From positions 1 to 33,654 of the forward strand of contig JAFXGY010000023.1 in the NCBI GenBank assembly GCA_017536625.1: a stretch of DNA of 33,654 nt. The letters run 5' to 3'. The stretch is from Oscillospiraceae bacterium (GTDB taxonomy: Bacteria > Bacillota > Clostridia > Oscillospirales > Ruminococcaceae). Positions within the stretch are counted from its first letter, which is position 1. The number at the start of each line of letters is the position of its first letter. The notes below the pieces were generated by a model that did not search any database, had not been told where the DNA came from, and was given only the letters and a program-made list of their open reading frames with translations. Below are positions 3,245 to 17,343 of this stretch, one piece after another. A program made the translations under genes and the position numbers.

Positions 3245-3264
3245 TCGAAAATGTAATAAAAACG

Positions 3265-3298
3265 GCGCAGTCCACCGGCGGTGGATTGCGCTTTTTTA
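3265..3298 (+). terminator. Rho-independent terminator after the P-loop gene
   Basis: A 12-base-pair stem, GCGCAGTCCACC (3265-3276) with GGTGGATTGCGC (3280-3291), including one G-T pair, is followed by a run of T residues. Confidence 0.85.
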
Positions 3299-3408
3299 TT
3301 TGACGGGATATAATTATTACCGTAAGGAAGGATATCATCTTCCCGAAAATGATTGCAAATTAAAAATGTGGCAGGGGATTTTTCCTGCCGAAAGAAAGCG
3401 GTGATTTT

Positions 3409-4140
3409 ATGACAAAAGAAAATCTTGGAAAATTCATTGCAGAAAACCGCAAAGCCCTTGGAATGACCCAGGAGGAGCTTGCGCAGAAACTTTTTGTCAC
3501 GAACAAAGCCGTTTCAAAATGGGAAAAAGGATTAAGCTTTCCGGATATTGCGATGTTTGAACCTTTGGCGGAAGCTCTCGGTGTTTCCGTCGCGGAACTT
3601 TTTTCCGGCGAAAAGGAAGAAAAAGATGTTTCCGTAAAAGCCGTTCTGGAACTTTCCGGAGCTGTCATAAGGAAAGAGAAAAAGAAACTTCATACTGCGG
3701 TCGGAATTTTATTTTCGGTTATAATTGCGCTGCTTATAATTTTTTCCGAAAGTATAGCGGATGCCATCGACGCCAGAAATATGGATTATCTTTATTGGAA
3801 AGGGTTTTATTATGTTCCGACGAATGAAGGAGTTCCCGCAAACTGGCTTGAACCTATCGGGACCGTAAGAAAAGCAGGAATCCGAAACGAAGAAAATTAC
3901 GGCGGCGATTCAAATATCGCCGACCCGGATACGGAAATTTATATCATCGTACCGCCAAAAGATGCGGAATGGAGAGAATATGCGGATTATGAGGATACTC
4001 TTGCCGCAAGGGTGGACGGAAAACTGACACTTTTCCGTTTTACTTTTTGGGGAAGGCAGGATTTTGAAAGATACGAGAGGGTAAACATAAAAGAAGGCGA
4101 ATGGGGAAAAGGCTATTTAAAAACTGAGGATTTTTATTGA
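3409..4140 (+). CDS. XRE-family regulator with a membrane-anchored C-terminal region
   Basis: Residues 1 to about 58 are a classical HTH_3 domain (LGMTQEELAQKLFVTNKAVSKWEKG, cut here to its key part: TQEELA, NKAVSKWEKG, FPDIAMFEPLAEALGVS). A basic linker and one transmembrane helix follow (about residues 92-112, VGILFSVIIALLIIFSESIA). Roughly 130 residues come after the helix and would lie outside the cell; they contain Trp and Tyr but no recognised domain. This layout, a cytoplasmic DNA-binding domain joined to an extracytoplasmic tail, suggests regulation by a membrane or extracellular signal, but no target is known. Start ATG 3409 follows an AAAGCGGTG site. It is monocistronic between two terminators. 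Confidence 0.85.
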   Translation: MTKENLGKFIAENRKALGMTQEELAQKLFVTNKAVSKWEKGLSFPDIAMFEPLAEALGVSVAELFSGEKEEKDVSVKAVLELSGAVIRKEKKKLHTAVGILFSVIIALLIIFSESIADAIDARNMDYLYWKGFYYVPTNEGVPANWLEPIGTVRKAGIRNEENYGGDSNIADPDTEIYIIVPPKDAEWREYADYEDTLAARVDGKLTLFRFTFWGRQDFERYERVNIKEGEWGKGYLKTEDFY

Positions 4141-4150
4141 TGAATAACTG

Positions 4151-4190
4151 AAAAAACACCTTTGCATATTCGGTGCAAAGGTGTTTTTTT
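4151..4190 (+). terminator. Rho-independent terminator after the XRE gene
   Basis: AAAAAACACCTTTGCA (4151-4166) pairs with TGCAAAGGTGTTTTTT (4174-4189), ending in a T-run. Confidence 0.9.
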
Positions 4191-4229
4191 CGAAAATTAT
4201 GAATTTTTGGTAAAAATAAAATAAAATTC

Positions 4230-4257
4230 TTGACATGGAAAGAGATTTGCCTATAAT
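4230..4257 (+). promoter_or_regulatory. Near-consensus sigma-A promoter for the gpx operon
   Basis: TTGACA (4230-4235) and TATAAT (4252-4257) match both consensus hexamers exactly, with a 16-base spacer. The predicted start near 4264 falls inside the operator at 4257-4280, as expected for a strong promoter held down by a repressor. Confidence 0.85.
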
Positions 4258-4280
4258 TTAATTGAGCACAATTAAATTGT
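4257..4280. promoter_or_regulatory. Tandem OhrR-type operator over the gpx transcription start
   Basis: Two overlapping perfect inverted repeats are present: TTTAATTG-AGCA-CAATTAAA (4257-4276) and ACAATT-A-AATTGT (4268-4280). The second equals the half-unit of the operator I recall for Bacillus subtilis ohrA, and the two units have the same tandem arrangement. It follows the -10 directly. An ohrR homologue lies two genes downstream. Confidence 0.75.
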
Positions 4281-4311
4281 GATAAATCAAATTTGCGGAG
4301 GAGAAGATTTT

Positions 4312-4785
4312 ATGAGTATTTACGATTTTTCAGTAAAAGATGCAGCAAGGAATGAGGTAAGCCTTGAGGATTATAAAGGCAAGGTTCTTCTTATAGTGAA
4401 CACCGCCACCGGCTGCGGATTCACCCCACAATATGAAGGCCTTCAGGACCTTTATGAAAAATATGCGGAAAAAGGGTTCGAAATCCTTGATTTTCCGTGC
4501 AATCAGTTCGGCGGTCAGGCACCGGGAACGGAAGATGAAATAATCGATTTCTGCCAAAGCCGTTATGGTGTAACATTCAAACAGTTCGCAAAAATCGAAG
4601 TAAACGGAGAAAACGAAGAACCGCTTTATAAATTCCTTAAAAAAGAAAAAGGCGGAATGCTTGGAAGCAAAATTAAATGGAATTTTACCAAATTCCTCGT
4701 TGACAGAAACGGAAAGGTCGTCGAAAGATTTGCGCCGATGGTTACTCCGGATAAAATCGAAGAAAAAATAAAGGAGCTTCTTTGA
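4312..4785 (+). CDS. Glutathione peroxidase-family thiol peroxidase
   Basis: A 157-residue cytoplasmic peroxidase of the Cys-GPx type, which reduces hydroperoxides, usually with thioredoxin. Peroxidatic Cys35 lies in NTATGCGFTPQY, Gln69 in FPCNQFGGQ, and Trp123-Asn124 in KWNFTKFLVD, so the catalytic tetrad positions are filled. Cys81 (DFCQSRYGVTF) matches the resolving Cys of the two-Cys type. No selenocysteine is implied. ATG 4312 has GGAGGAG eight bases upstream; the in-frame ATA-region start at 4279 is less likely because it lies inside the operator. The stop codon overlaps the next start (TGATG). It heads an operon with the TSCPD and OhrR genes. Confidence 0.93.
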   Translation: MSIYDFSVKDAARNEVSLEDYKGKVLLIVNTATGCGFTPQYEGLQDLYEKYAEKGFEILDFPCNQFGGQAPGTEDEIIDFCQSRYGVTFKQFAKIEVNGENEEPLYKFLKKEKGGMLGSKIKWNFTKFLVDRNGKVVERFAPMVTPDKIEEKIKELL

Positions 4786-5045
4786 TGGAATATATTTATG
4801 AACCGGAAGGCGTTTGTCCGATGCAGATAAAATTTGATATAAACGGCGATATCATCACAAATATCGAATTTTTCGGCGGCTGTAACGGAAACCTTAAAAT
4901 TATCGCAAAACTTCTTGAAGGCAAAACCGTAAATGAAATATATGAAAAACTGATCGGCAACACCTGCGGAAGAAAAAATACATCCTGTGCAGATCAGCTT
5001 GCAAAAGCGGTAAAAGAAGCTTACGAAAAATCAACGGCCGCTTGA
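4785..5045 (+). CDS. TSCPD domain protein (TIGR03905 type)
   Basis: An 86-residue protein consisting of one TSCPD domain, the Cys-rich module also found at the C terminus of some vitamin B12-dependent ribonucleotide reductases. Conserved features are GVCP near the N terminus, FFGGCNGNLKII, the LIGNTCGRKNTSCADQLAKAV block and an acidic-basic C-terminal helix. Its function is not established; the cysteines suggest metal or redox chemistry. ATG 4785 overlaps the gpx stop by one base with AAGGAG (4771-4776) upstream; a TTG at 4782 is possible but less well spaced. Translational coupling to the peroxidase suggests a linked redox role, which is an inference. Confidence 0.85.
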   Translation: MEYIYEPEGVCPMQIKFDINGDIITNIEFFGGCNGNLKIIAKLLEGKTVNEIYEKLIGNTCGRKNTSCADQLAKAVKEAYEKSTAA

Positions 5046-5077
5046 AAAAAACCAAAGGCTGTGGTAAATTAAATTAT
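5042..5077 (+). promoter_or_regulatory. Possible ohrR promoter with degenerate OhrR box
   Basis: TTGAAA (5042-5047) and TAAATT (5065-5070) are 17 bases apart. The -10 overlaps TAAATTAAATTAT (5065-5077), which matches the 13-base box at 4268-4280 in 10 positions. This would allow weak autoregulation. Confidence 0.4.
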
Positions 5078-5108
5078 ATAAAATCACTTCCGGGAAGGGG
5101 GATGTTCA

Positions 5109-5552
5109 ATGGGTGCTGAATACGATGTTCTGAAACTGAAAAACCAGATATGTTTTCCGCTTTATGCGGCTTCAAGGGAGGTCGTTAAACGATACAGACC
5201 ATTTCTTGAAGAACTTGGAATAACATATACCCAGTATATTGCCATGATGGTTTTTTGGGAAGAAAAGAAAATAAGCGTCAAAGAACTCGGAAAAAAGCTC
5301 TACCTCGATTCCGGAACGCTTACGCCGGTGCTTAAAAGCCTTGAAGCAAAAGGGTTTGTGCGAAGATATCGTTCGGACGAGGATGAAAGGGTCCTTCTTG
5401 TTGAAATAACTCCGGAAGGTGAAAAAATAAAGGAAAAGGCTGTTTCAATTCCGCAGAAAATTGCGGGTTGCGTAAAGCTCGAAGCGGAAGAAGCGGTTCA
5501 GCTTTATCAGTTGCTCTATAAAGTTCTCGGAACTTCCGAAGAAAAAACGTAA
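5109..5552 (+). CDS. ohrR: OhrR-type MarR-family organic peroxide sensor/repressor
   Basis: A 147-residue winged-helix repressor. In the OhrR family a reactive N-terminal Cys is oxidised by organic hydroperoxides and the dimer leaves its operator. Here Cys15 lies in KNQICFPLYAASR, and Tyr29 and Tyr40, which hydrogen-bond that Cys in B. subtilis OhrR, are both conserved in position. Cys121 (IAGCVKLE) is spaced like the resolving Cys of two-Cys OhrR proteins. The winged HTH covers about residues 55-100 (ELGKKLYLDSGTLTPVLKSL, then RRYRSDEDERVLLV). The gene sits downstream of gpx and TSCPD, with an OhrR-like operator on the gpx promoter. No ohr gene is present nearby. ATG 5109 follows GGAAGGGGG. 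Confidence 0.9.
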   Translation: MGAEYDVLKLKNQICFPLYAASREVVKRYRPFLEELGITYTQYIAMMVFWEEKKISVKELGKKLYLDSGTLTPVLKSLEAKGFVRRYRSDEDERVLLVEITPEGEKIKEKAVSIPQKIAGCVKLEAEEAVQLYQLLYKVLGTSEEKT

Positions 5553-5560
5553 TATAAACA

Positions 5561-5596
5561 AAAACACCTCCGTATATTTTATGCGGAGGTGTTTTT
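5561..5596 (+). terminator. Terminator hairpin that also contains the ddh ribosome binding site
   Basis: AAAACACCTCCG (5561-5572) pairs perfectly with CGGAGGTGTTTT (5584-5595). It ends ohrR transcription, but GGAGGTG in its 3' arm is also the only Shine-Dalgarno sequence for ddh, whose ATG follows the T-tract at once. Confidence 0.8.
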
Positions 5597-6475
5597 ATGA
5601 AGAAAATCGCCGTAATCGGCGCCGGGAACCTTGGAATCTCGGCGGCAAAAGCTCTCGAACTCTCACCGGATATGGAAATTTGCGGATTTATCCGCAGAAA
5701 AAATCAAAAGGTAAACGGCTTTGCGGATATTCCGGTTGCGGAAAGCTTTTTTGATTTGCCGGAAAAGCCGGATGGCGCAATAATCGCACTGCCTTCAAGA
5801 CTTGCGGAAGAAGCGGAAAAACAGCTCCTCGAAGCGGGAATTTTCACAGCCGATGCTTTCGATATCCACGAAGAACTTTCGGGAATGCGCCAAAGGCTTT
5901 CCGTGTTCGCCAAAAAAGGCGGTGTTTCCGCCATAATCGGAGCAGGTTGGGATCCTGGGCTGGATTCAGTAATAAGAACTCTGATGCTTTCTGCGGCGCC
6001 AAGCGGAATAACCTTTACCGATTTCGGTCCGGGGATGAGCATGGGACATTCCGCAGCGGCAAAATCCGTTGAAGGTGTCGCGGATGCACTTTCGTTCACT
6101 TTGCCGCTGGGGCATGGAAAGCACCTGCGAAAAATATATGCGGTGCTCAAAGAAAATGCGGATAAAACGGAAGTTGAGCACGCTGTTCTCTCCGATGGAT
6201 ACTTTGAGCACGATGAGTGCTCGGTTTCTTTTTCGGATTCAGCTTCGGATTATTTCACAGCAGGGCACAGGGTAAAAATCAACCGCTTCGGTTCTTCTTC
6301 CGGAACGGGAAATCAGCATATCGAATTTTCCATGGAAATCGATAATCCTTCCCTTACGGGGCAGATTCTTGTTTCGGCGATGCGTGCGGCGTTTTTACAA
6401 AAACCGGGCGCATATTTTATGCCGGAAATTCCACCCTGCGATTTTTGTGCAGGAGAATGGGAAAATGTGCTGTAA
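5597..6475 (+). CDS. ddh: meso-Diaminopimelate D-dehydrogenase
   Basis: This NADPH enzyme makes meso-diaminopimelate from tetrahydrodipicolinate and ammonia in one step, feeding lysine and peptidoglycan synthesis. The 292-residue protein has an N-terminal Rossmann motif GAGNLG (8-13), the GWDPGLDSVIRTL segment, and the family signature FGPGMSMGHSAAAKSVEGV with THT-like substrate loops further on. The C-terminal half shows the dimerisation region and a final Cys-containing tail (PPCDFCAGEW). The start at 5597 lies directly after a terminator T-tract. The downstream XRE gene converges on it. The assignment is firm; the unusual leader is discussed under findings. Confidence 0.92.
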   Translation: MKKIAVIGAGNLGISAAKALELSPDMEICGFIRRKNQKVNGFADIPVAESFFDLPEKPDGAIIALPSRLAEEAEKQLLEAGIFTADAFDIHEELSGMRQRLSVFAKKGGVSAIIGAGWDPGLDSVIRTLMLSAAPSGITFTDFGPGMSMGHSAAAKSVEGVADALSFTLPLGHGKHLRKIYAVLKENADKTEVEHAVLSDGYFEHDECSVSFSDSASDYFTAGHRVKINRFGSSSGTGNQHIEFSMEIDNPSLTGQILVSAMRAAFLQKPGAYFMPEIPPCDFCAGEWENVL

Positions 6476-6496
6476 AGATTTATCCGGATGGGAAAA

Positions 6497-6691
6497 TTAT
6501 TTTTCGCCTCTCACAAATTCATCAACGGTGACTTCAAAAAAATCCGACATTTTAATAAGCATCTCAATATCCGGTTCGGATTCCCCCCGTTCATATTTGC
6601 TTACGGAAGTTTGTGAAATATGTAAAGCGTCTGCAAGGGCGCGCTGGGTAAGTCTTTTCTTTTTTCTCAATATTTTAAGCATTGTAAGCAT
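6497..6691 (-). CDS. Small XRE-family HTH regulator
   Basis: A 64-residue protein that is essentially one HTH_3 domain: LRKKKRLTQRALADALHIS, then SQTSVSKYERGESEPDIEML and a last helix FFEVTVDEFVRGEK. It probably binds DNA as a dimer; the target is unknown. ATG 6691 is preferred over the GTG at 6700 because GAGGTG, read on this strand, lies six bases before the ATG and no site precedes the GTG. It is convergent with ddh and divergent from the EF-G gene. The bipartite 32-base motif described in the findings lies 117 bases upstream. Confidence 0.85.
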   Translation of the reverse strand: MLTMLKILRKKKRLTQRALADALHISQTSVSKYERGESEPDIEMLIKMSDFFEVTVDEFVRGEK

Positions 6692-6808
6692 CTTTTTCAC
6701 CTCGAAAATATTATATAATAAACAAAAAGATAAAAATACAGGTATGTTTTTGCAGGCATTTTTGCAAAATTTAACAGTATTTGGGCTTTTTTTAATAAAG
6801 TTCTATAA

Positions 6809-6840
6809 TAATAGTAACTTTTTTTGCCGTTTTTGTTGCA
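6809..6840 (-). promoter_or_regulatory. Bipartite motif, copy A
   Basis: Read on the minus strand: TGCAACAAAA, 15 bases, ACTATTA. The same blocks at the same spacing recur at 11230-11261 and 14037-14068. It overlaps the -35 of the plus-strand EF-G promoter. Confidence 0.55.
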
Positions 6841-6865
6841 ATGTATAATAATTTTTTGTTATAAT
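6836..6865 (+). promoter_or_regulatory. Predicted sigma-A promoter for the EF-G gene
   Basis: TTGCAA (6836-6841) and TATAAT (6860-6865) are 18 bases apart, about 40 bases before the TTG start. Confidence 0.6.
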
Positions 6866-6903
6866 AGCGTTGTACGACACATTGTGAAAGGGGATTAACA
6901 ACT

Positions 6904-8976
6904 TTGAAACAGTACAAAGCAAAAGATATCAGAAATATCGCACTTGCAGGTCACGGCGGCGATGGTAAAACCAGCCTTGCAGAAGCCCTGCTCTTCATGT
7001 CCGGCGCAACCGACAGACTCGGTTCTGTTCCGGAAGGCAACACCGTTTGCGACTTCGACCCCGAAGAAACCAAACGCCACATTTCCGTAAGCTCCGCAGT
7101 AGCTCCTTTCGAGTATGACGGTGTTAAAGTAAACATCATCGATACTCCCGGACTCTTCGACTTCGCCGGAGGTTTTTATGAAGGCGTTCGCGCAGCAGAT
7201 GCAGTAATCATCACTCTTTCTGCAAAATCCGGTGTTCTTGTCGGTACCGAAAAAGCATGGAAACTTGCAACCGCACAGAAAAAAGCAAAAGCATTCTATA
7301 TTTCCAAAATGGACCTCGAGAATGCAGACTTCAACAAAGTTCTTGAAGCTCTTAAAGAAAAATTCGGCAGCGCAGTTTGCCCCGCAGTAATTCCTGTAGG
7401 CAATGTTTACGTTGACCTTATTACCAAAAAAGCTTTCACCTTCGACGCAAAAGGCAAGAGCACCAAAGTTGATCTTCCCGATGACCCGATTATCGAAGAA
7501 CTTGAAGACGCAATCAATGAAGCAATTGCAGAAGCAGATGACGAACTTATGGAAAAATTCTTCGAAGGCGAAGAATTCACCGAAGAAGAACGTTTCCGCG
7601 GATTTGAAGAAGGCGTTGCAGCCGGAATCATCGCTCCCGTATATTGCGGCGACTCCGTAACCCTTCGCGGAATTGAAATGCTCCTTCACGAATTCAAAAA
7701 AATCTTCCCCTCCGCAGAAGAAGCTGCTTCCGAAGTTGCTTTTGATGCAGACGGCAAAGAAGTCAAACTTGCCTGCAGCGAAGACGAACCTCTTGCAGCA
7801 TACGTTTTCAAAACCGTTGCAGACCCCTTCGTCGGCAAACTTTCTTTCGTAAAAGTTGTTTCCGGCGTTCTTTCCGCAACTTCCGCTGTTACCAACTCCA
7901 GAACCGGTAACCCCGAAAGACTCGGCAAACTTGTTATCATGCACGGCAAAACCCAGGAACCCACCGAAGCAGTCGGCGCTGGCGATATCTGCGCAATCAC
8001 CAAACTTGCAGAAGCACAGACCGGTGATACTCTTTGCGACCCGAAACGCGTTGTTTCCTGCAAAAAGACCGATTTCCCCGTTGCCTGCCTCAGAATGGCA
8101 ATGTATCCCAAAGGCAAAACCGATGATTCCAAGATCGCAGGCGCAATCGCAAGAATCATGGAAGAGGATGCAACCGTTGCTTATGAAAACAACGCAGAAA
8201 CCAAACAGCAGATCCTTGCAGGTCTTGGCGAACAGCATCTTGACGTAATCTGCAGCAAACTCAAATCCAAATTCGGCGTAGAGCTTGGTCTTGAAAAACC
8301 CCGTGTACCTTATCGCGAAACCATCCGCAAAAAGGTCAAAGTTCAGGGTAAACATAAAAAACAGTCCGGCGGTCATGGCCAGTATGGTGACGTTTGGATC
8401 GAATTCGAACCTACCGAATCCGAAGAAATGGTATTCGAAGAAGCAGTATTCGGCGGTTCCGTTCCGAGAAACTTCTTCCCCGCAGTAGAAAAAGGCCTCC
8501 GCGAAGCTTGCAAAACCGGTATGCTTGCAGGTTATCCGATGGTCGGCGTTCTCGGCAGACTTGTTGATGGTTCCTATCATCCCGTTGACTCCAACGATAT
8601 GTCCTTCCAGATGGCAGCAAGACTTGCTTATAAAGCAGGTATCCCCCAGGCAGGCCCCGCAATCCTTGAACCTATCGGCTCCCTCAAAGTTGTCGTTCCG
8701 GATTCCAACACCGGCGATATCATCGGCGATGTAAACAAACGCCGCGGCCGTGTTCTTGGTATGAACCCTGTTGAAGGCGAAGACGGCTATTCCGAAGTTG
8801 AAGCAGAAGTTCCCATGAGCGAAATGCACGACTTCACCACCTCTCTCCGTTCCTCCACCCAGGGCAGAGGTTCCTTCACCTTCGCATTCGACCACTATGA
8901 AGAGCTCCGCGATGAAACCCTCAAACAGGCTGTAATCGAAGAAGCAAAACAGTGGATGACCGAAGAAAAAGAATAA
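6904..8976 (+). CDS. Elongation factor G paralogue (EF-G2-like translational GTPase)
   Basis: A 690-residue translational GTPase with all EF-G domains. The G1 loop is AGHGGDGKT (15-23), G3 is DTPGL (80-84) and G4 is SKMD (134-137) instead of NKMD. Domain IV (GHGQYGDVWIEFEP) and domain V (SNTGDIIGDVNKRRGRVLGM, EMHDFTTSLRS) are intact. In canonical EF-G the residue after DTPG is the catalytic His; here it is Leu84, as in the EF-G2-like group, which carries non-His residues there. The gene is alone, not beside rpsL/rpsG, so it is probably not the main fusA. The TTG start at 6904 follows AAAGGGG. Codon use is extremely biased, pointing to heavy expression. A terminator follows. Confidence 0.9.
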   Translation: MKQYKAKDIRNIALAGHGGDGKTSLAEALLFMSGATDRLGSVPEGNTVCDFDPEETKRHISVSSAVAPFEYDGVKVNIIDTPGLFDFAGGFYEGVRAADAVIITLSAKSGVLVGTEKAWKLATAQKKAKAFYISKMDLENADFNKVLEALKEKFGSAVCPAVIPVGNVYVDLITKKAFTFDAKGKSTKVDLPDDPIIEELEDAINEAIAEADDELMEKFFEGEEFTEEERFRGFEEGVAAGIIAPVYCGDSVTLRGIEMLLHEFKKIFPSAEEAASEVAFDADGKEVKLACSEDEPLAAYVFKTVADPFVGKLSFVKVVSGVLSATSAVTNSRTGNPERLGKLVIMHGKTQEPTEAVGAGDICAITKLAEAQTGDTLCDPKRVVSCKKTDFPVACLRMAMYPKGKTDDSKIAGAIARIMEEDATVAYENNAETKQQILAGLGEQHLDVICSKLKSKFGVELGLEKPRVPYRETIRKKVKVQGKHKKQSGGHGQYGDVWIEFEPTESEEMVFEEAVFGGSVPRNFFPAVEKGLREACKTGMLAGYPMVGVLGRLVDGSYHPVDSNDMSFQMAARLAYKAGIPQAGPAILEPIGSLKVVVPDSNTGDIIGDVNKRRGRVLGMNPVEGEDGYSEVEAEVPMSEMHDFTTSLRSSTQGRGSFTFAFDHYEELRDETLKQAVIEEAKQWMTEEKE

Positions 8977-8993
8977 TTCATCCGAATAATAAA

Positions 8994-9030
8994 AAAAGCC
9001 CTGTCATATTATTGACAGGGCTTTTATTTT
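8994..9030 (+). terminator. Rho-independent terminator after the EF-G gene
   Basis: AAAAGCCCTGTCA (8994-9006) pairs with TGACAGGGCTTTT (9013-9025), followed by a T-rich stretch. Confidence 0.9.
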
Positions 9031-9040
9031 TCCTAGAAAA

Positions 9041-9091
9041 CCTTCCATACCGGGGAAGGCGTCATTTGCGCAGCAAATGACGCAAGGGTGT
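9041..9091. repeat. Short double-hairpin palindromic repeat
   Basis: Two adjacent hairpins: CCTTCC/GGAAGG (9041-9046/9054-9059) and CGTCATTTGC/GCAAATGACG (9060-9069/9073-9082, three-base loop), then CAAGGGTGTA. The pattern resembles dispersed repeats common in gut Clostridia (from memory). It lies between a terminator and the next gene and has no coding capacity. Confidence 0.55.
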
Positions 9092-9131
9092 ATTAATCGT
9101 CCAATAAAGATTTTTTCCGGAGATGATTTTT

Positions 9132-9593
9132 TTGCTTACAGCTTCCGTAAAAACCACAAAAACAAAGATGATCGGAACCCTTTGCATAATTCTTGCCCTG
9201 ATTATTGCCGTGATACTTTTCTTCGGCGGGAACGGTTCTTCAGAAGCCGCAGAATCCATTTCACGCCGTGCTTCTGATAACAAAGAAAGATTGGATTACC
9301 TTACGGCAAAAGGCTTTGAAGCGGCCTCGGAGCCTTCTGCAGTGGAAGAGGTGCTTCTTCCGGAAGAGATGGATGAAATCCTTTCGGAATATAATGAAAT
9401 CCAGCTGGAATCCGGGTTCGACCTTTCGCCTTATCTTGGAAAAAAGGTGAAAAAATACGTTTATCCCATTGACAGCGAAGAAGAAACTTTTGCCACCCTT
9501 TATATTTACGAAGAAAAAATAATTGCAGCGGATATCGCTTCCCATACGGAAGGCTGGCAAAGACCTATTGACGGCGGCGAAAAATTCGGATAA
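9132..9593 (+). CDS. Membrane-anchored DUF4830 protein
   Basis: A protein of about 153 residues with one N-terminal transmembrane segment (IGTLCIILALIIAVILFFGG) and an exported C-terminal domain. The block beginning RLDYLTAKGFEA, through LLPEEMDEILSEYNEIQLESGFDLSPY, to the YIYEEKIIAADIAS strand matches the DUF4830 family as I know it; its role is unknown. The start is uncertain. The ATG at 9123 abuts the CCGGAG site with no spacing, so TTG 9132, nine bases from GGAG, is preferred; ATG 9168 is a third option. It is followed 35 bases later by an acetyltransferase gene, with no terminator between them. Confidence 0.75.
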   Translation: MLTASVKTTKTKMIGTLCIILALIIAVILFFGGNGSSEAAESISRRASDNKERLDYLTAKGFEAASEPSAVEEVLLPEEMDEILSEYNEIQLESGFDLSPYLGKKVKKYVYPIDSEEETFATLYIYEEKIIAADIASHTEGWQRPIDGGEKFG

Positions 9594-9628
9594 TATAAAT
9601 ATATAAAATCAAAAGCTGAGAGGATAAA

Positions 9629-10060
9629 ATGGATTACAGAAAAATTGTTATCGAAGATGTGCCGGAACTTGCGAAAATCTATGCCGAAACCTTCAATTCC
9701 GACCCCTGGTATGATAAATGGACCCAAAAAACAGCCGAAAAGCGACTTTCCCGAATGATAGAAAACGGGGGATTTTTCGGCATTGTTTCATTCAATGAAG
9801 AAGGCATAACAGGAATGATACTCGGGGAAGAGGAACAGTATTTTGACGGCGTTATTTTCAATATAAAGGAATTCTGCGTCCGCAACGACCTTCGCGGAAA
9901 AGGAATCGGAACCGAACTTCTTGCGGAATTTGAACGCCGGCTTAAAGGTATGGGAATCCGGGAAACGGTTCTTATGACCAATATTGAAGACGAGGAATTT
10001 TATAAAAAACGCGGTTTCCACCGCAGCCGCGGAATAATCAATATGGGAAAAGAACTCTGA
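9629..10060 (+). CDS. GNAT-family N-acetyltransferase
   Basis: A 143-residue single-domain protein of the GNAT fold. The N-terminal half has the typical beta1-alpha1 start (YRKIVIEDVPELAKIYAETF). The acetyl-CoA pyrophosphate-binding motif A is RNDLRGKGIGTELLAEFE (about 90-107), and the final strand-helix pair ends EEFYKKRGFHRSRGI. The substrate cannot be told from sequence. ATG 9629 follows GAGAGG. It is probably co-transcribed with the DUF4830 gene, and converges with the minus-strand DUF4349 gene on a shared terminator. Confidence 0.9.
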   Translation: MDYRKIVIEDVPELAKIYAETFNSDPWYDKWTQKTAEKRLSRMIENGGFFGIVSFNEEGITGMILGEEEQYFDGVIFNIKEFCVRNDLRGKGIGTELLAEFERRLKGMGIRETVLMTNIEDEEFYKKRGFHRSRGIINMGKEL

Positions 10061-10104
10061 TTAAAGGTGAATCGAATTTTGGAAAAACTTTTTCATAAAT
10101 ATAG

Positions 10105-10141
10105 AAAAATCTCCGTGCTCAAATGAGCACGGAGATTTTTT
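10105..10141. terminator. Bidirectional terminator between convergent genes
   Basis: A perfect 16-base-pair stem, AAAAATCTCCGTGCTC (10105-10120) with GAGCACGGAGATTTTT (10125-10140), has A and T tracts on both sides. It can serve the acetyltransferase gene (+) and the DUF4349 gene (-). Confidence 0.9.
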
Positions 10142-10157
10142 GCTTTATTTTATTTTT

Positions 10158-11207
10158 TTATTTTTCTTCGAGAGTTTCTTCTGCTTCGGCGGAAGCGTTT
10201 TTCTTTGCAAGTTTCTGCGCCTTTTTATATTCTTTTCTGGCTTTTCTTGCTGCTTTGCGTTCCTGATATTTTGCGGATTTACCAAGGATAAATCTGATTA
10301 CAAAGATTATCGCGGCGATAATCACGCCCCAGATGAGGAAATAGGGGATATTCGCAACGAACCAAACGAAGAAATCCTGCGCGCCGACCCAGATATCATA
10401 AATGTTATCGGAAAAATCGCTTCTGATGCGTTCAAAAACGGTTTCCTGTTCCGGGGCGGTAATGCGTTTTACTTCATTGATGCTGAGGTTTACGGTGCTG
10501 TAATCCACAAGGTTGTCATAGGTGCGAAGCTGGCTTTCGTAACTTTCAAGCTGATAGCGGACTTCCGTAAGGCGCTGCTGAAGAAGAATGATGGTATCAA
10601 TATTTTCTGCTTCCGCAAGAAGTTCGAGAAGCTGGTCATATTCGGTCTGGAGGGATTTTATTCTTGCTTCGGTATCAACGTAATGAAGGGTGACGTCCTC
10701 GGTATCCTCATAGCAATATGTTATGTTTCCAAGCCCGCCGACGGTATTGATGAATTCATCAAGCTTTCCGGAAGGCACACGGCAGACAAAGTTTGCATAG
10801 CGGCTGGAAGAATAGTTATAGGAATTTCCGCTGGTGCTGGAACTTTCGATATATCCGCCAAGGGAATTTACCTCCGCTTTTATTGAAGCGACGAAGGAAT
10901 CAAATTCAAGGGTTTCGATATCAAGGTTGAATGTGCGGATAAGCTTTCTTCCGGCGGGTTTAATTTCGGCGCTGTTTCCGCCGCCGGTATTGACGTTTTC
11001 GGAAGTCATGCTGTCAAAAAGGGAATCTTCGACTGCTATTTCTTCCTCGGGCATTGCTTCCGGTTCTTCCATCGGCGCATCAATGAAAAAATCACCTTTG
11101 TTAATGGATTCGCTCATGGAATCCATTGCCATTTCGTTGCTCGCACCGCATCCGCTGAAAACAACCAAAAAAGCAAGGATAAGGGCAAAAATTCTGATTT
11201 TTTTCAT
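10158..11207 (-). CDS. DUF4349 lipoprotein
   Basis: A 349-residue surface lipoprotein. The signal peptide ends in a lipobox, VFSGC, with the lipidated Cys at residue 20. An acidic, low-complexity spacer precedes the DUF4349 domain (about 95-325), which starts RKLIRTFNLDIET and includes the conserved GGYIESS turn and FVCRVPSGKLDEF. A coiled coil (EARIKSLQTEYDQLLELLAEAE region) and a C-terminal transmembrane helix (FLIWGVIIAAIIFVIRFIL) follow, ending in a Lys/Ala/Glu-rich cytoplasmic tail. So it has both a lipid anchor and a membrane helix. Function is unknown. ATG 11207 follows AAGGAGG. Motif copy C lies 22 bases upstream. Confidence 0.88.
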   Translation of the reverse strand: MKKIRIFALILAFLVVFSGCGASNEMAMDSMSESINKGDFFIDAPMEEPEAMPEEEIAVEDSLFDSMTSENVNTGGGNSAEIKPAGRKLIRTFNLDIETLEFDSFVASIKAEVNSLGGYIESSSTSGNSYNYSSSRYANFVCRVPSGKLDEFINTVGGLGNITYCYEDTEDVTLHYVDTEARIKSLQTEYDQLLELLAEAENIDTIILLQQRLTEVRYQLESYESQLRTYDNLVDYSTVNLSINEVKRITAPEQETVFERIRSDFSDNIYDIWVGAQDFFVWFVANIPYFLIWGVIIAAIIFVIRFILGKSAKYQERKAARKARKEYKKAQKLAKKNASAEAEETLEEK

Positions 11208-11229
11208 GGTATCAAACCTCCTTACACTA

Positions 11230-11261
11230 TAATAGTGCGAAAAATTTTCCATTTTGTTGCA
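11230..11261 (-). promoter_or_regulatory. Bipartite motif, copy C
   Basis: Read on the minus strand: TGCAACAAAA, 15 bases, ACTATTA, in the gap between the YfhO stop and the DUF4349 start. It is 22 bases before that ATG. No plus-strand gene starts nearby, which orients the motif. Confidence 0.55.
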
Positions 11262-11267
11262 TCAAAA

Positions 11268-13790
11268 TCAAAGTTCGGGATAAATTTTTTCTTCGGGACC
11301 GGTATATTTCGAAGCAGGAGGAACGTCTTCGGGGCTTCGGACGATTGTAAGGTCCTCTTCCGGGGAAAGTTCCTTTTCAAAAATATCGGTACTTTCAAGG
11401 CTGCGGTCCTCGTAATATTTGCTCATAAGTTCGTTGTCCGCTTCTCTTCTGCGTTTTTCATAATAGAACAAAGCGGTATATGCAATAAGTGCGATGAAGG
11501 AAACCGCGCTTATCAAAGCGCCTGCCTTAAGACTGGGAGTTTCATAAACAAAGACGATTTCGTTTATGCCTTTTTCTGCAAAAACAGCCATAAAGCCAAT
11601 GTCAACTTTTTCAATTACCGTTTCCGCACCGTTCACATAAGCTTTCCAGCCTTTTTCATAAGGGACGGAGAAGAAAACAAGGTTATCTTCAATAAGGTGG
11701 ATTTTGGCGGTGAAGCCTTTGTGGTCATAATTGAAGCTGTAAGCGGAAGACATTCTTCTTTCGCGCACTTCATGCTGGAATTCTTCATAAGGAACTCCCA
11801 CATAGGGCGCTATGTTGTGGCTGAGATACGGCCCATAAAGTTTTGCCTGGCTTTCGGTAAGAACAATGTTGGAAACAAGGATTTCGCTGCGCTGTGCTTC
11901 AAAAATATTGTAATATTGCTCTTCCGTAATATATTGGTCAAAGGTGAATCCCATGGGAATATAGTTTTCGTTTTTATAAATGTGATATCCGTTTTCGGTT
12001 TTATAATAATTGAACCCTTGGCAAAGTACGGATTCTTCAGAAGCTTCATCTGCATCCGCATAAAGATAACGTACAGAAAGCAGCGCCCGAAGTTCATAAA
12101 GGTCAAATTCAGGTTTGCTCGAAACATCGCGGGTAACATCGACGGTCGGATAAAATTCCATAATGGAAGGGGTGACGACGCTGTGGAAGCAGCGGATGGA
12201 AGGAATGTTCCAATAAAGCCCCATATTTTCGAAGCATTCATAAAAATCCGCTCTCGCAAAAGCTTCTCCTTCGCTGGGAAGTTCCATTTCTTCCGCAAGT
12301 CCGACAGCGTCCTCGATGATTTCATCGTGGTCGCCGGCAAAGGTATAGCCGAGATTGATATATGCCATGCCGTAAAGGGCACAGATGAACGCAGTCATAA
12401 GAACAAGAAGGTTTTTATAGAATTTCCGGTTCTTAACAAGCCAGAGAAGCAGAGAAAAACCAAGGCAGACTATGGCGAAGGAAGCGCTGAGAATGAACCA
12501 TCCGTCGTCATAAAGAAGTCCCATTTCCCAGTTTCCGTCGTTATAATGCACCGGGGTGAGGAAAAGGATAAGTGTGAGCCCGATTACAAAGCAGAAAGAG
12601 GGAATAAGTCCTTTTTTATAATCGATTTCCTCGTGACTTTCGTCCTCACCGGGAAGTTCAAGAGCCTTCACTGTTGCAAGGATAAGCACAAGCTCGAACA
12701 TATAGAACCATCTGGCATAATAAGAATGGTTAAAAAGTATGAAAAGCGAATTGAGAGCGGGAACAAGTGCAAAAACAGTGCAGGCGATTATCATTTTTTT
12801 AAGCCAGCTGTTTTTTACAGAGCGAACATAGGCAAGAACGCCGGTCATTCCGAAAAGAGGAAGCCAGCCCGCCATGGAAGCCCATTGTGCACCCTGGCCG
12901 GTGAACATATTCTGCTTGGAAGGCATATCCGGAGGGAAGAAAAAGCTTGTTATGATGGCGGGAACACGCTGTTCGCTGTAATAAAGCCAAAGACTCCAGC
13001 CGTTGATGAAGTTATCAACTCCGGTTCTCGGGTTTTCGGTTATTGCAAGAACCGAAGGAAGAACAGCCACCGCCGCAACGCAAAGCCCGATGACGGATTC
13101 CAGCGCAACATAAAGGAAGCAGCGGAATTTTCTGCTTATGTTTTTATCGGTTATGCGTATGAAGAAATAAAGCACCACAAAAACAACTTCGCCGATGAAA
13201 AACCAATAGTTGACTATGGCGTTGAGCGCCACCGCAGCGGCAAAAGGTCCGTGCTTATCTTCGGTAATAAGCATTTCAAGCCCGATGAGAATGAGAGGGA
13301 AGAATGCGACCACATCAAGGAAATGGTTGAAGAAAACGTTATAAATGCAGTATCCGCTGAAAGCATAAAGAAGTCCGCCGATGACCGCATAGCGTTTATC
13401 CTTCACAAAGCGCGCGACATAAAAATATGCGGTGAATGCGCTTGCCGCGAATTTAAGAACAAAAAGCGGTGCCATAAGATAAGGAACCATGGCGGTATCA
13501 AAAGGAAGAGTCAGCCAGAAGAACGGGCTGAAAAGAAGATAGAAAGAATATGCACCGATGAAGTTTACACCAAGGTCGGTGTTCCAGTCCCAGCCGATCT
13601 GACCGTTTGTAACAAGCTCGTGGGTGTGCATATAAAAAGCGATCTGCTGGCAGTTATAATCCCCGTAATATGTAAAAATTCCGCCGTTTCTCAAAACGAC
13701 AATGCCGACAGTAATTATTCCGCAGACAGCCGCAAGAATAAGCGCCCACCAGCAAAGATTTTTTGTTTGAAAGTCTTTTGTCTTTATCAT
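11268..13790 (-). CDS. YfhO-family multi-spanning membrane protein
   Basis: An 840-residue integral membrane protein. It has an N-terminal transmembrane helix (LCWWALILAAVCGIITVGIVVL), then about eleven more helices within the first 480 residues, a large extracytoplasmic region (about 490-740), a final helix (GALISAVSFIALIAYTALFYY) and a charged cytoplasmic tail. The early YYGDYNCQQIAFYMHTHELV region and the pattern of helices fit the YfhO/GT-C-like family; in Bacillus, YfhO has been linked to lipoteichoic acid glycosylation. The acidic residues typical of GT-C enzymes in the first loop may be DYN near residue 43. ATG 13790 is preceded, on this strand, by GGGGAT. No terminator separates it from the DUF4349 gene, so both may be one unit. 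Confidence 0.85.
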   Translation of the reverse strand: MIKTKDFQTKNLCWWALILAAVCGIITVGIVVLRNGGIFTYYGDYNCQQIAFYMHTHELVTNGQIGWDWNTDLGVNFIGAYSFYLLFSPFFWLTLPFDTAMVPYLMAPLFVLKFAASAFTAYFYVARFVKDKRYAVIGGLLYAFSGYCIYNVFFNHFLDVVAFFPLILIGLEMLITEDKHGPFAAAVALNAIVNYWFFIGEVVFVVLYFFIRITDKNISRKFRCFLYVALESVIGLCVAAVAVLPSVLAITENPRTGVDNFINGWSLWLYYSEQRVPAIITSFFFPPDMPSKQNMFTGQGAQWASMAGWLPLFGMTGVLAYVRSVKNSWLKKMIIACTVFALVPALNSLFILFNHSYYARWFYMFELVLILATVKALELPGEDESHEEIDYKKGLIPSFCFVIGLTLILFLTPVHYNDGNWEMGLLYDDGWFILSASFAIVCLGFSLLLWLVKNRKFYKNLLVLMTAFICALYGMAYINLGYTFAGDHDEIIEDAVGLAEEMELPSEGEAFARADFYECFENMGLYWNIPSIRCFHSVVTPSIMEFYPTVDVTRDVSSKPEFDLYELRALLSVRYLYADADEASEESVLCQGFNYYKTENGYHIYKNENYIPMGFTFDQYITEEQYYNIFEAQRSEILVSNIVLTESQAKLYGPYLSHNIAPYVGVPYEEFQHEVRERRMSSAYSFNYDHKGFTAKIHLIEDNLVFFSVPYEKGWKAYVNGAETVIEKVDIGFMAVFAEKGINEIVFVYETPSLKAGALISAVSFIALIAYTALFYYEKRRREADNELMSKYYEDRSLESTDIFEKELSPEEDLTIVRSPEDVPPASKYTGPEEKIYPEL

Positions 13791-13819
13791 AATAAAAATC
13801 CCCGTATATCAAAAATAGA

Positions 13820-13833
13820 GCGGGTTTTCCCGC
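13820..13833 (-). terminator. Small hairpin in the yfhO leader, possible attenuator
   Basis: GCGGG/CCCGC with a four-base loop; on the minus strand it is followed by TCTATTTTTG, 30 bases before the yfhO start. The stem is short, so termination would be weak. Confidence 0.3.
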
Positions 13834-13899
13834 AGAATAAAATAATCCAATATAATTATATATCTTTTTACATTATTTTTAAAGAGGAAAATATAAAAA

Positions 13900-14007
13900 T
13901 AACCCGCGGCGGCATCGGAATATGCAAAAAAGACTGTTTTTTTCGGCGAAAAAGTCTTATAATATATTCATTACATAAATCCGTTTGGTGGCAGCCGCCG
14001 CGGGTTA
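13900..14007. other. Element of about 108 bases closed by a 14-bp GC-rich inverted repeat
   Basis: TAACCCGCGGCGGC (13900-13913) is perfectly complementary to GCCGCCGCGGGTTA (13994-14007). The 80 bases between are AT-rich and hold a second hairpin (AAGACT...AGTCTT around 13930-13958, with TTTTC/GAAAA inside). No open frame is supported. It could be a structured RNA, the yfhO leader on the minus strand, or a small mobile palindromic element. Confidence 0.45.
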
Positions 14008-14018
14008 AAATTTTTTTC

Positions 14019-14032
14019 GGAACGCGCGTTCC
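14019..14032. repeat. Perfect 14-base palindrome
   Basis: GGAACGCGCGTTCC is its own reverse complement and lies five bases before motif copy B. It may be a protein-binding site; no regulator is identified. Confidence 0.35.
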
Positions 14033-14036
14033 ATAA

Positions 14037-14068
14037 TAATAGTGTAAAAAAATCCCGTTTTTGTTGCA
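14037..14068 (-). promoter_or_regulatory. Bipartite motif, copy B
   Basis: Read on the minus strand: TGCAACAAAA, 15 bases, ACTATTA. Copies A and B also share ACGG after the first block and a second ATTAT after the last. It lies 246 bases before yfhO (-) and 16 bases before yfbR (+). Confidence 0.55.
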
Positions 14069-14084
14069 TAAGGAGGATAAAAAT

Positions 14085-14669
14085 TTGAAGGAAAGCAGAT
14101 TTTATGCATATATTTCAAGAATGAAACATATTTTTCGCTGGTCGCTGATGAAAAACAGCAAGGAAGAATCCCTTTCCGTCCACACCCTTGATACCGCAGT
14201 TATTGCGCATTGCCTTGGGGCACTTCGCAACCGTCGCTTTGGCGGAAGCTGCGATATCGAAAGGCTTGTTATGCTTGCTATGTATCATGACTGCAGCGAA
14301 ATCCTCACCGGCGATATGCCAACCCCAATAAAATATTATAACCCGGAAATCAAAGAAGCATATAAAAAAGTCGAGGTAATTGCGAATAAAAAGCTTCTCG
14401 ATATGCTTCCGGAAGATCTTCGCCCGGAATATGAACCTTATTTTGACCATTCGGGCGAAGATCCGGAACTTTTGAAGCTCCTTAAAGCGGCGGATAAAAT
14501 TTCCGCCCTTATAAAATGCGTTGAGGAAGAAAACGCCGGCAACCGGGAATTTTCGAAAGCAAAATCAAGCATTATGCAGTCCATTGCTGAAATGAATCTT
14601 CCGGAAGCGGATACTTTCATAAGCGATTTTCTTCCAAGCTACGGGCTCACCATTGATGAACTCAATTAA
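14085..14669 (+). CDS. yfbR: YfbR-type HD-domain 5'-deoxynucleotidase
   Basis: A 194-residue HD-superfamily phosphohydrolase. The YfbR family removes phosphate from dNMPs in nucleotide salvage. Metal-binding residues are visible: His in SVHTLDTAVIAH, the HD doublet in AMYHDCSEILTGDMPTPIKY, and a distal Asp in LLKAADKISALIKC. The RWSLM motif near residue 22 and EESLSVHT are also typical. The TTG at 14085 is chosen because AGGAGG (14071-14076) lies eight bases upstream; the earlier in-frame TTG at 14061 would put that site inside the gene. It overlaps the convergent 60-residue gene by four bases at the stop codons. Confidence 0.9.
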   Translation: MKESRFYAYISRMKHIFRWSLMKNSKEESLSVHTLDTAVIAHCLGALRNRRFGGSCDIERLVMLAMYHDCSEILTGDMPTPIKYYNPEIKEAYKKVEVIANKKLLDMLPEDLRPEYEPYFDHSGEDPELLKLLKAADKISALIKCVEEENAGNREFSKAKSSIMQSIAEMNLPEADTFISDFLPSYGLTIDELN

Positions 14670-15954: not shown

Positions 15955-17343
15955 ATGAAGATATCAACGGATATAGAAGTCAACAAACGGCATTTTGATG
16001 CGCTTTTTTGCACAAACAGAAATTTTGATCTGAAGAAAAGGGAAATTTCATTTGCGGGAAAATCCGCCGTGCTTTATATGATAGACGGTTTTCTCCGAAG
16101 CGACGTTCTCGAAAGGATCCTTGCGGAATTCACCTTTTTGAATAAGGGAGATGCGCAGGATGAGCAGGAATTTTTTCTTCATCATATACCGTTTGCAGGC
16201 GTGAGCACCGAATGTGACGATTCGGAAATAGCAACCGCCGTGCTCAGCGGAAGAACCGTGCTCATGGTGGATGGTTTTGCTTCGGCGTTCGTTTTCGAAC
16301 TTCGGAATTATCCCCAAAGGGATAATGCGGAACCTGACCGTGATAAAGTTATGCGCGGTTCAAGGGATGGTTTTACCGAAACCATGCTCTTCAATGCGGC
16401 GCTGATTCGCCGCCGCATAAGGGATTGCGATTTAAGCATTGAATATCAGTCTATCGGAAAAGTTTCAAAAACGGATATAGCCCTTTGCTATCTGAACGAT
16501 AAGGTGGATAAAACCATGCTTGAAGATGTGCGAAGCAAAATAAAAAATTCAAAAATCGAAGCCCTGACCATGAGCCAGGAGGATATGGCTAACGTCATAA
16601 ACGGAAAAAAACGCTGGAATCCGTTCCCGAAATATAAATTCACCGAAAGACCGGACGTCGCCGCGGCGCAGATCATGCAGGGTGATCTTATTGTTCTTGT
16701 GGATAACACCCCCACCGCAATGATAATGCCCTCGACGATTTTTGATATTGCGGAGGACGCAAACGATTATTATTTTCCGCCGCTTACCGGCGCATATCTT
16801 CGCATAACAAGAATCCTTACAATGGTCGTTACTCTTTTCCTGACTCCGGTCTGGCTTCTTGCTCTTCGATATCCGGAATTTGTTCCGGAGGTATTCAAAT
16901 TCGTGCTGGTGGAAGAAGAACAGAACATCCCGATAATCTGGCAGCTGCTGATACTGGAATTTGTCATCGACGGTCTGAAGCTTTCTTCCCTTAATACTCC
17001 CGGAATGCTTTCTTCCACATTTTCAATTATCGCGGGTATCATAGTCAGCGATTTTGCGGTAAAAAGCGGCTGGTTCGATGCGGAAACAATGCTTTATATG
17101 GCTTTTGTGGCCATGGCGAATTACAGCCAGCCCGGTTATGAGCTTGGATATGCCATAAAATTCATGCGCATGGCTCTTCTGATCGGAACAGCGCTTTTCG
17201 GAATCTGGGGATTCATCGGCGGAACAGCGCTCACACTTGCGCTGATTCTTTCAACAAAAATCCACGGAAAAGAAGGATATTTTTCTCCGGTTATTCCTTT
17301 TTCGCCGAAAGGTTTTGCAAAGCTTATCTTCCGGCTGAAATAA
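15955..17343 (+). CDS. GerA-family spore germination protein (SpoVAF-like)
   Basis: A 462-residue membrane protein of the GerA (Spore_GerA) family. The N-terminal soluble domain (about 1-280) carries the family segments IGKVSKTDIALCYLND, RWNPFPKYKFTERPDVAAAQIMQGDLIVLVDNTP and IFDIAEDANDYYFPP. Four or five membrane helices follow (TRILTMVVTLFLTPVWLLAL; later MALLIGTALFGIWGFIGGTALTL, given here in part). WNPFP and TERPD are shared with SpoVAF and GerAA proteins. No GerAB or GerAC gene and no spoVA gene is adjacent, so it is an orphan A subunit; this layout fits SpoVAF-like proteins better than a complete receptor. Its transcript would have to pass the hairpin at 15908. Confidence 0.9.
   Translation: MKISTDIEVNKRHFDALFCTNRNFDLKKREISFAGKSAVLYMIDGFLRSDVLERILAEFTFLNKGDAQDEQEFFLHHIPFAGVSTECDDSEIATAVLSGRTVLMVDGFASAFVFELRNYPQRDNAEPDRDKVMRGSRDGFTETMLFNAALIRRRIRDCDLSIEYQSIGKVSKTDIALCYLNDKVDKTMLEDVRSKIKNSKIEALTMSQEDMANVINGKKRWNPFPKYKFTERPDVAAAQIMQGDLIVLVDNTPTAMIMPSTIFDIAEDANDYYFPPLTGAYLRITRILTMVVTLFLTPVWLLALRYPEFVPEVFKFVLVEEEQNIPIIWQLLILEFVIDGLKLSSLNTPGMLSSTFSIIAGIIVSDFAVKSGWFDAETMLYMAFVAMANYSQPGYELGYAIKFMRMALLIGTALFGIWGFIGGTALTLALILSTKIHGKEGYFSPVIPFSPKGFAKLIFRLK

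Follow-up and report, generated by a model that had tools for sequence, protein, structure and literature searches.

A bipartite motif in an Oscillospiraceae genome is very probably (roughly 90%, judging from its sequence context) the autoregulated promoter of an ECF sigma factor, with a -35 element of TGCAACAAAA, a gap of 15 nt, and a CACTAT-like -10 element. The window, which is the whole 33,654-nt stretch of DNA that we analyzed, contains exactly three exact copies of TGCAACAAAA-N15-ACTATTA, all on the minus strand (6809-6840, 11230-11261, and 14037-14068). This bears out the first-pass annotation, which had reported three exact copies with a fixed 15-base gap. If three mismatches are tolerated, the same three sites are found in the window, versus 0.17 expected, and none of 100 shuffles reached three. 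The ACGG and ATTATTAT flanks are common to the copies at 6809 and 14037, and not, as had been claimed for ACGG and a repeat, to the first two copies. The spacer and the region are AT-rich, so we considered a mobile repeat or a chance similarity. But the spacers and flanks differ while the gap is fixed, chance predicts far fewer sites, and relatives have the copies at orthologous positions (see below), so we find this explanation barely credible. The three copies and the features around them are:

6497..6691, minus strand: 64-aa XRE/HTH_3 regulator (HTH_3, E = 3.2e-19; ATG start at 6691)
6809..6840, minus strand: copy A of the putative ECF promoter motif (-35 block 6831-6840, -10 block 6809-6815; exact match)
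6836..6865, plus strand: probable promoter of fusA (EF-G), sigma-A-like TTGCAA-N18-TATAAT
10158..11207, minus strand: DUF4349 lipoprotein gene (E = 6.6e-64; lipobox FSGC; start 22 nt after copy B)
11230..11261, minus strand: copy B (-35 block 11252-11261, -10 block 11230-11236; exact match)
14037..14068, minus strand: copy C (-35 block 14059-14068, -10 block 14037-14043; exact match)
14082..14669, plus strand: YfbR-like 5'-deoxynucleotidase (E = 1.5e-74; AAGGAGG, then a TTG start; divergent from copy C)

The first-pass annotation saw no plus-strand gene near copy C and took this copy to fix the orientation of the motif. Because the YfbR-like gene adjoins copy C, beginning at 14082, the orientation cannot be derived there; it follows from the same-strand genes that stand behind the other sites. 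A minus-strand gene had also been placed behind each copy. This holds for the XRE and DUF4349 genes, but yfhO is not the first feature behind copy C, as a structured RNA intervenes. That annotation overlooked the sigma factor, the small RNA that follows copy C, and the plus-strand neighbor.

In the organism's own genome (1,904,325 bases), we found five exact copies of the motif, three copies with one mismatch, and five with two mismatches, three of which end in ACTATAT. The total rises to 31 once matches with three mismatches are counted, but the reversed pattern then gives 27, which makes the three-mismatch matches background. A search for GCAACAA and ACTAT with a free gap of 14-21 gave 13 matches (5 for the reversed pattern), and 12 of the 13 have the spacing originally reported. 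Variable spacing, with a single deviating match, is unsupported. We also rejected a sigma-A promoter, as the spacing of the blocks does not suit one and the 11 own-genome copies show no conserved T ahead of TGCAAC (letter counts over the sites are partly fixed by the pattern that found them). AAC in the -35 element is among the hallmarks of ECF promoters, while CGT in the -10 element was an early hallmark that was later dropped as defining (PMC8103513). The ECF-like AAC had been pointed out in the first block, and it is found more widely: the element reads TGCAAC across the genus and TGCA(A/G)(C/T) before relatives' ECF genes. The classical CGT is replaced by CACT(A/T).

One sigma factor gene in the genome carries the motif:

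Contig C28 of the organism's own genome: ECF sigma factor gene (180 aa), with the motif directly upstream

The C28 protein contains Sigma70_r2 (residues 24-80) and Sigma70_r4_2 (119-170), and it scores 106.7 bits against sigma70-ECF (cut-off 42.9). Like other group IV sigma-70 factors, it has only the sigma2 and sigma4 domains, with a linker of under 50 residues. Among 20 Sigma70_r2 loci that we examined (of 22 matches; the other two had no locus), this is the only one with the motif. We rejected the other sigma factors as owners, including the paralog on contig C34, although that paralog is 59% identical and might share the sites. We infer that the C28 ECF binds the sites.

In relatives, the motif is present on the sense strand in 47 of 79 ECF upstream regions (250 nt; 80 loci minus L132, which has no upstream sequence) and on the antisense strand in none, versus 0.05 expected from 3 matches in 1,131,552 control bases. 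The regular expression missed the other 32, a number of which show a diverged form by eye. The same element before the sigma factor's own gene, kept in relatives, points to autoregulation. The upstream regions of orthologs, which the first-pass annotation had suggested comparing, also keep the motif at the places of copies A, B, and C. The gene after the ECF gene starts at a median of +10 from the ECF stop and has one predicted transmembrane segment in 74 of 80 loci (none in 1, two in 4, three in 1). This layout suggests that it encodes a membrane anti-sigma factor. The one candidate anti-sigma that we scanned gave no Pfam or NCBIfam family over the cut-off. (Alignment A1 comprises P0001, L102, and 25 of 30 loci; we omitted L072, which is the same as P0001, L076, which is cut, and L079, L095, and L099 [stop inside].)

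Within the genus, 14 of 15 genomes have 3-16 sites each, with 126 sites in total versus 4 for the reversed pattern. Of the 14 genomes besides our own, 12 encode an ECF that is 76-84% identical; in G061, which has no sites, the ECF is only 58% identical. The ECF upstream region of G061 lacks the -35 block, yet a variant of the motif precedes its copy of the small RNA. G148 (87% complete) has 4 sites and no match to the ECF. Across 148 genomes from the family, we found 24 sites outside our own genome, versus 4 in all for the reversed pattern, counting the exact form only (the diverged consensus TGCARTAAA is outside that scan). Ten of the 24 lie within ~145 nt upstream of a matched ECF gene, and the other 14 do not adjoin it.

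Behind 135 sites, our script found 77 lipoproteins, 14 instances of the RNA and then yfhO, 14 XRE regulators, 10 ECF genes, 7 other proteins with a signal or transmembrane segment, and 13 others. The "other" class is overstated because the script missed nearer starts at L306, L310, L312, and L354; we kept the counts as computed. Further RNAs at these four loci, suggested by their distant starts, were rejected given the nearer starts in the sequence. A permissive classifier calls lipoproteins for 28 of 159 nearby genes without the motif, so the lipoprotein enrichment is strong but not absolute. Of seven target proteins from our own genome that we scanned, five had no Pfam match at E <= 0.01. 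The distance to start codons is tight (16-41 nt at 75 of 77 lipoprotein sites), and the scatter inside genes that would have told against a promoter is absent, with 0 of 102 sites within ORFs. As the motif precedes ECF and lipoprotein genes, these results support the earlier suggestion of an alternative sigma factor's promoter or a regulator's site for an envelope regulon.

A DNA-binding activator or repressor could also recognize a pair of fixed blocks, and operators too can be autoregulatory. But neither block repeats the other, their spacing is rigid, the sites lie close before starts, and it is an ECF sigma factor gene that has the site across the family. An operator is therefore very unlikely, and we favor an ECF promoter.

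Copy A stands 117 nt upstream of the XRE regulator, and 12 relatives that we examined have it at the orthologous position, with a leader of 116-119 nt. Its -35 block overlaps the -35 element of the putative EF-G promoter, as had been observed before; at this promoter, TTGCAACAAA is invariant in all 13 aligned sequences, the window included. In the relatives examined, the DUF4349 start comes 21-23 nt after copy B.

Copy C quite likely makes a discrete small RNA, with its own terminator, ahead of yfhO, as judged from conserved sequence and structure. The features of this region are:

11268..13790, minus strand: gene for a membrane protein of the yfhO family (YfhO, E = 6e-76)
13855..13883, minus strand: putative sigma-A-like promoter TTTAAA-N17-TATAAT, past the predicted terminator of the RNA and ahead of yfhO
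13895..14033, minus strand: candidate ECF-dependent small RNA of ~140 nt (both ends predicted)
13981..13991, minus strand: CCACCAAACGG element within the RNA, conserved and unpaired (alignments A2 and A3)

The RNA folds into a 5' hairpin and a closing stem (arms 13994-14006 and 13901-13913), with a U-run at 13895-13899. Its z-score is -4.38, and 11 of 31 pairs show a compensatory change. The CCACCAAACGG element reads CCACCACCAAGCGG in most aligned relatives. The RNA is present in 14 of 15 genomes of the genus, with one diverged (G061). The motif precedes 14 of 14 strong copies in the genus, and a variant precedes the diverged one, so all 15 copies fit a 5' end at an ECF promoter. These 15 copies, which we kept, score 56.8 bits or more. 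We discarded, without reading them, nine weak rows from the genus (25.9-30.8 bits), at least two of which lie antisense to the RNA. We also discarded four weak matches from the family (27-33 bits), L297-L299 after reading and L300 unread. When we searched 148 genomes for the RNA outside the genus, with a covariance model and a pattern, only our own genome (by the model only) and G061 were convincing.

Copy C could instead drive yfhO via a long structured 5' leader, such as an attenuator or riboswitch, with no separate small RNA. Within the genus, the RNA does remain a neighbor of yfhO, whose start is 231-296 nt past the motif at 14 sites, and the closing stem could serve as an attenuator. But in the aligned relatives, an invariant ATTTTT comes after the closing stem, ahead of a conserved promoter-like sequence, TTTAAA-N17-TATA(A/C)T, in which CTTTAAA and TATA-T are invariant or nearly so across 14 aligned sequences. 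Also, the RNA has no match in Rfam at the gathering score (five matches at E <= 5 are far below it), so by Rfam it is not a member of a described family, as a known riboswitch or leader would be. We consider such a leader improbable and prefer the discrete small RNA.

The small RNA might repress the mRNA of the sigma factor itself: the CCACCACCAA loop of the RNA could pair with UUGGUGGUG in the leader just before the ECF start, which would give negative feedback. As many as 9 consecutive base pairs could form. Among 13 ECF genes of the genus (our own and 12 orthologs), the 26 nt immediately ahead of the start are the same, and G061 deviates at a single position, despite 58-84% protein identity. 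Depending on which species' loop is used, only 1-21 of 285 other leaders pair equally well or better. However, the upper figure is for our own species' loop, and 25-117 of 1000 shuffled loops equal the pairing. Many ECF leaders also retain GGTGGTG in genera in which we did not find the RNA, so this sequence may be nothing more than a weak Shine-Dalgarno. The pairing with the sigma factor's leader is weakly supported and suggestive only, and we view the feedback as doubtful.

We propose that the candidate membrane anti-sigma encoded just downstream holds the C28 ECF. Once released, the ECF would transcribe its own operon and would turn on mostly lipoprotein genes, including the DUF4349 gene behind copy B, as well as the XRE regulator via copy A. 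Via copy C, it would produce the ~140-nt structured RNA, which would end at its own terminator before yfhO and may form the non-coding arm of the response.

This arrangement resembles autoregulated ECF/anti-sigma modules (hallmarks from PMC8103513) in having only sigma2 and sigma4, a neighboring gene for a candidate anti-sigma with one TM segment, AAC in the -35 element, a copy of the same promoter before the sigma factor's own gene, and an envelope regulon. It differs in having CACT(A/T) rather than CGT in the -10 element and in targeting mostly lipoproteins. Escherichia coli sigma-E, with MicA, RybB, and MicL, is likewise an ECF whose response has both a protein and a non-coding arm, and MicL concerns a lipoprotein (PMC8103513). 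By analogy, the copy C RNA is similar to the sRNA arm found in sigma-E responses. Unlike in E. coli, the ECF promoters here precede lipoprotein genes, the RNA has no Rfam family at the gathering score, and the named relatives are Oscillospiraceae. In Fusobacterium nucleatum, FoxI and FoxJ are sigma-E dependent, and FoxJ (~156 nt) was formerly misannotated as the next gene's 5' UTR (PMC11005410); similarly, the copy C RNA could be mistaken for the 5' UTR of yfhO. The phylum and the neighboring gene differ, and the likeness is by description rather than by sequence. In Bacillus subtilis, YfhO (of CsbB-YfhO) acts in lipoteichoic-acid glycosylation, and its trapped lipid-linked substrate leads to activation of the ECF SigM (PMC11898649). 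In contrast, yfhO here apparently has its own predicted sigma-A-like promoter.

A fuller scenario, which we consider rather improbable, is that this genus of gut Oscillospiraceae has an ECF-controlled lipoprotein stress regulon with an unusual -10 element, in which the RNA dampens translation of the sigma factor and the promoter at copy A competes with that of EF-G, lowering the capacity for translation whenever the regulon is active. Among the literature matches listed, which mostly leave out subscription papers, the regulon and the RNA are undescribed, and searching for the letters of the motif gave only unrelated work among the matches listed.

An anonymous repeat thus becomes a defined regulon, with one probable sigma factor and a promoter consensus with which relatives can be scanned. 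Lipoproteins that are mostly uncharacterized now have a likely common regulator. ECF responses with an sRNA arm have been described in Proteobacteria and Fusobacteria (PMC8103513 and PMC11005410); if the RNA is real and ECF-driven, such responses would extend to these gut bacteria.

The first-pass annotation had described three copies of a two-block motif in the window, and there are indeed exactly three matches to TGCAACAAAA-N15-ACTATTA, all on the minus strand, where 0.17 would be expected by chance even with three mismatches permitted.

6809-6840, minus strand: copy A
11230-11261, minus strand: copy B
14037-14068, minus strand: copy C

The organism's own draft genome (1,904,325 bases in 60 contigs) contains five exact copies, three copies with one mismatch, and five with two mismatches, of which three end in ACTATAT. 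When we allowed the gap to vary from 14 to 21, 12 of 13 matches kept one spacing (reversed pattern: 5). With three-mismatch matches included, the motif has 31 matches and the reversed pattern has 27, so we confined the analysis to the 11 best copies.

Inspection of the flanks showed that 8 of these 11 copies are followed, on the same strand, by a gene for a lipoprotein or another protein with a signal peptide, and one by an ECF sigma factor gene (on contig C28). Behind copy A is a gene for a 64-amino-acid XRE regulator, with a leader of 117 nt, and the 246 nt downstream of copy C contain no gene start. We also inspected 135 distinct sites from loci across the genus, including this genome, with start codons and lipoproteins assigned by script. 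By this assignment, the next feature is a lipoprotein gene at 77 sites, an RNA and then yfhO at 14, an XRE gene at 14, the ECF gene at 10, another signal-peptide or transmembrane protein at 7, and something else at 13. The distance from the site to the lipoprotein's start codon has a median of 29 nt and is 16-41 nt in 75 of the 77 cases. The same permissive classifier scored 28 of 159 motif-free neighboring genes as lipoproteins. Of 102 sites, none was located within an ORF.

A search of this genome with Sigma70_r2 from Pfam gave 22 matches. The match on C28 lies directly behind a motif copy (C28:16411-16442), and it is the only one of the 20 sigma factor loci examined to have the motif. The protein (180 amino acids) contains sigma2 and sigma4 domains only and matches the sigma70-ECF model at 106.7 bits; the best-matching solved structures are named SigH/SigE, SigW, and SigE. 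We found no motif upstream of its paralog on C34 (59% identical; locus L102, 2746-3270, minus strand), which has a GGTGGTG leader. The gene after the ECF gene starts near its stop codon and encodes one predicted transmembrane segment in 74 of 80 loci, which is the layout of a putative anti-sigma factor. According to PMC8103513, the hallmarks of ECF systems are AAC in the -35 element, CGT in the -10 element, two domains (to which the definition was later narrowed), a cotranscribed anti-sigma factor, and autoregulation. As far as sequence can tell, the C28 system appears to have all of these except for the CGT. A 2020 account of Clostridioides difficile describes the consensus sequences of its three ECF sigma factors as still to be identified (PMC7438776).

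At ECF locus L064, the operon continues (3197-6892, minus strand) with small lipoproteins and one large lipoprotein, which, judging by eye, resembles a phosphate-type binding protein. Ahead of lipoprotein genes that lie beyond the ECF gene, a stretch recurs about 20-35 nt from the start:

GGCGGCGGCA, near starts at 2261-3215 of the oriented locus, in L064, L241, L243, L244, L251, L252, and L365

We examined the best 80 of 164 encoded ECF relatives from named genomes. These 80 are from records for Oscillospiraceae or Ruminococcaceae, Anaerotruncus, Angelakisella, and others, and the closest are from the guts of deer, goat, sheep, cattle, and buffalo. One locus (L132) had too little upstream sequence, which left 79. 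Within 250 nt upstream of the ECF gene, the pattern [TC]GCA[AG][CT]AA-N16-[CT]ACT is present on the sense strand in 47 of 79 cases and on the antisense strand in none; the remaining locus sequence has 3 matches in 1,131,552 bases, which corresponds to 0.05 expected. Close relatives (76-84% identical) make up 11 of the 79 and supply 10 of the 47 matches. The pattern is missing from 32 upstream regions, a number of which (uncounted) have a diverged form by eye. More broadly, exact TGCAACAAA-N15-CACTA occurs at 24 places in 148 genomes from the family, beyond this genome (reversed pattern: 4 overall), and 10 of the 24 sit upstream of the matched ECF gene, at a distance of up to about 145 nt. Within the genus, 14 of 15 genomes have sites (3-16 apiece, 126 in total; reversed pattern: 4), and 12 of the 14 other genomes encode an ECF that is 76-84% identical. 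The genus scan found no sites in G061, whose ECF is just 58% identical; G148 (87% complete) has four sites and no match to the ECF.

Downstream of copy C, the minus-strand sequence has a folding z-score of -4.38.

13895-14033, minus strand: candidate structured RNA of about 140 nt, between copy C and yfhO

We aligned nine and later 14 orthologous sequences (the 14 are from 13 genomes, excluding G061), and the alignable stretch runs from behind the motif towards yfhO. The RNA has a 5' hairpin (GGAAC...GTTCC) whose letters are altered yet still pair in several sequences, an inner stem, a well-conserved unpaired CCACCACCAAGCGG, and a closing stem (AACCCGC.../...GCGGGTT), after which comes ATTTTT. 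RNAalifold predicted 31 pairs, with compensatory changes in 11. Paired cells (95.1%, versus 88.0% if shuffled and 32-49% with partners slid by 1-3 columns) and covariation (0.284 versus 0.145; as high in 0 of 500 shuffles) support this structure, although its derivation from the same alignment biases the comparison in its favor.

A covariance model built from nine of the aligned sequences detected the RNA in 14 of the 15 genomes from the genus: strong matches to 14 copies in 13 genomes (G149 has two) and a diverged copy in G061 (E = 2.4e-8), with nine weak rows excluded. The only genus genome without a match to this model was G152 (73% complete). We found no further convincing copy in the 148 family genomes, and Rfam had no match at the gathering score at this position. 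The motif precedes all 15 copies, as TGCAGGAAA-N15-CACTTA in G061. The second copy in G149 (L287; G149:C37:104081-104236) lies behind a motif and is followed by a yfhO-like start. Between the RNA's predicted terminator and yfhO is a conserved TTTAAA-N17-TATA(A/C)T, a predicted sigma-A-like promoter for yfhO. We therefore take copy C to be the promoter for a putative ECF-dependent small RNA. This RNA seems to closely parallel FoxJ from Fusobacterium, which PMC11005410 describes as a sigma-E-dependent small RNA of ~156 nt that was formerly taken for a 5' UTR. Sigma-E of E. coli is described as driving MicA, RybB, and MicL (PMC8103513). YfhO of B. subtilis is tied to ECF signaling via SigM and the lipid carrier, as described in PMC11898649.

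As many as nine base pairs could form between the loop of the RNA and UUGGUGGUG, which lies immediately upstream of the ECF start codon. Over its final 26 nt, this leader does not vary among the 13 ECF genes inspected in the genus, and one position differs in G061. But the pairing is equaled or bettered by 1 to 21 of 285 other leaders (21 with the species' own loop), 25-117 of 1,000 shuffled loops pair as well with the ECF leader, and GGTGGTG is also retained in genera without a detected RNA. So feedback of the RNA on the sigma factor is only a candidate, and we consider it unlikely. Many ECF leaders in the family have GGTGGTG or a near form right before the start (such as L064 around 8382-8412, and L074-L101), often with GAACCG further upstream.

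Other features noted in the window are listed below; the germination protein suggests that the organism may form spores:

4279-4785: glutathione peroxidase family gene (E = 6e-42)
15955-17340: GerA-type spore germination protein (E = 2.7e-128)
32139-32336, plus strand: cobalamin riboswitch (Rfam RF00174, 77.6 bits)

Copies A and B are both conserved at the orthologous position in the relatives that we fetched: the spacing to the XRE start is 116-119 nt for copy A, and copy B sits 21-23 nt ahead of the start of the DUF4349 lipoprotein gene. The -35 block of copy A overlaps the -35 element of a predicted divergent sigma-A-like promoter for fusA, which encodes EF-G (TTGCAA-N18-TATAAT; 6836-6865). 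In 13 of 13 aligned sequences, the two promoters point away from each other with overlapping -35 elements, and TTGCAACAAA, which is common to both elements, is invariant in all 13. Two polymerases could hardly bind there simultaneously, so the ECF sigma factor may hold back the transcription of EF-G.
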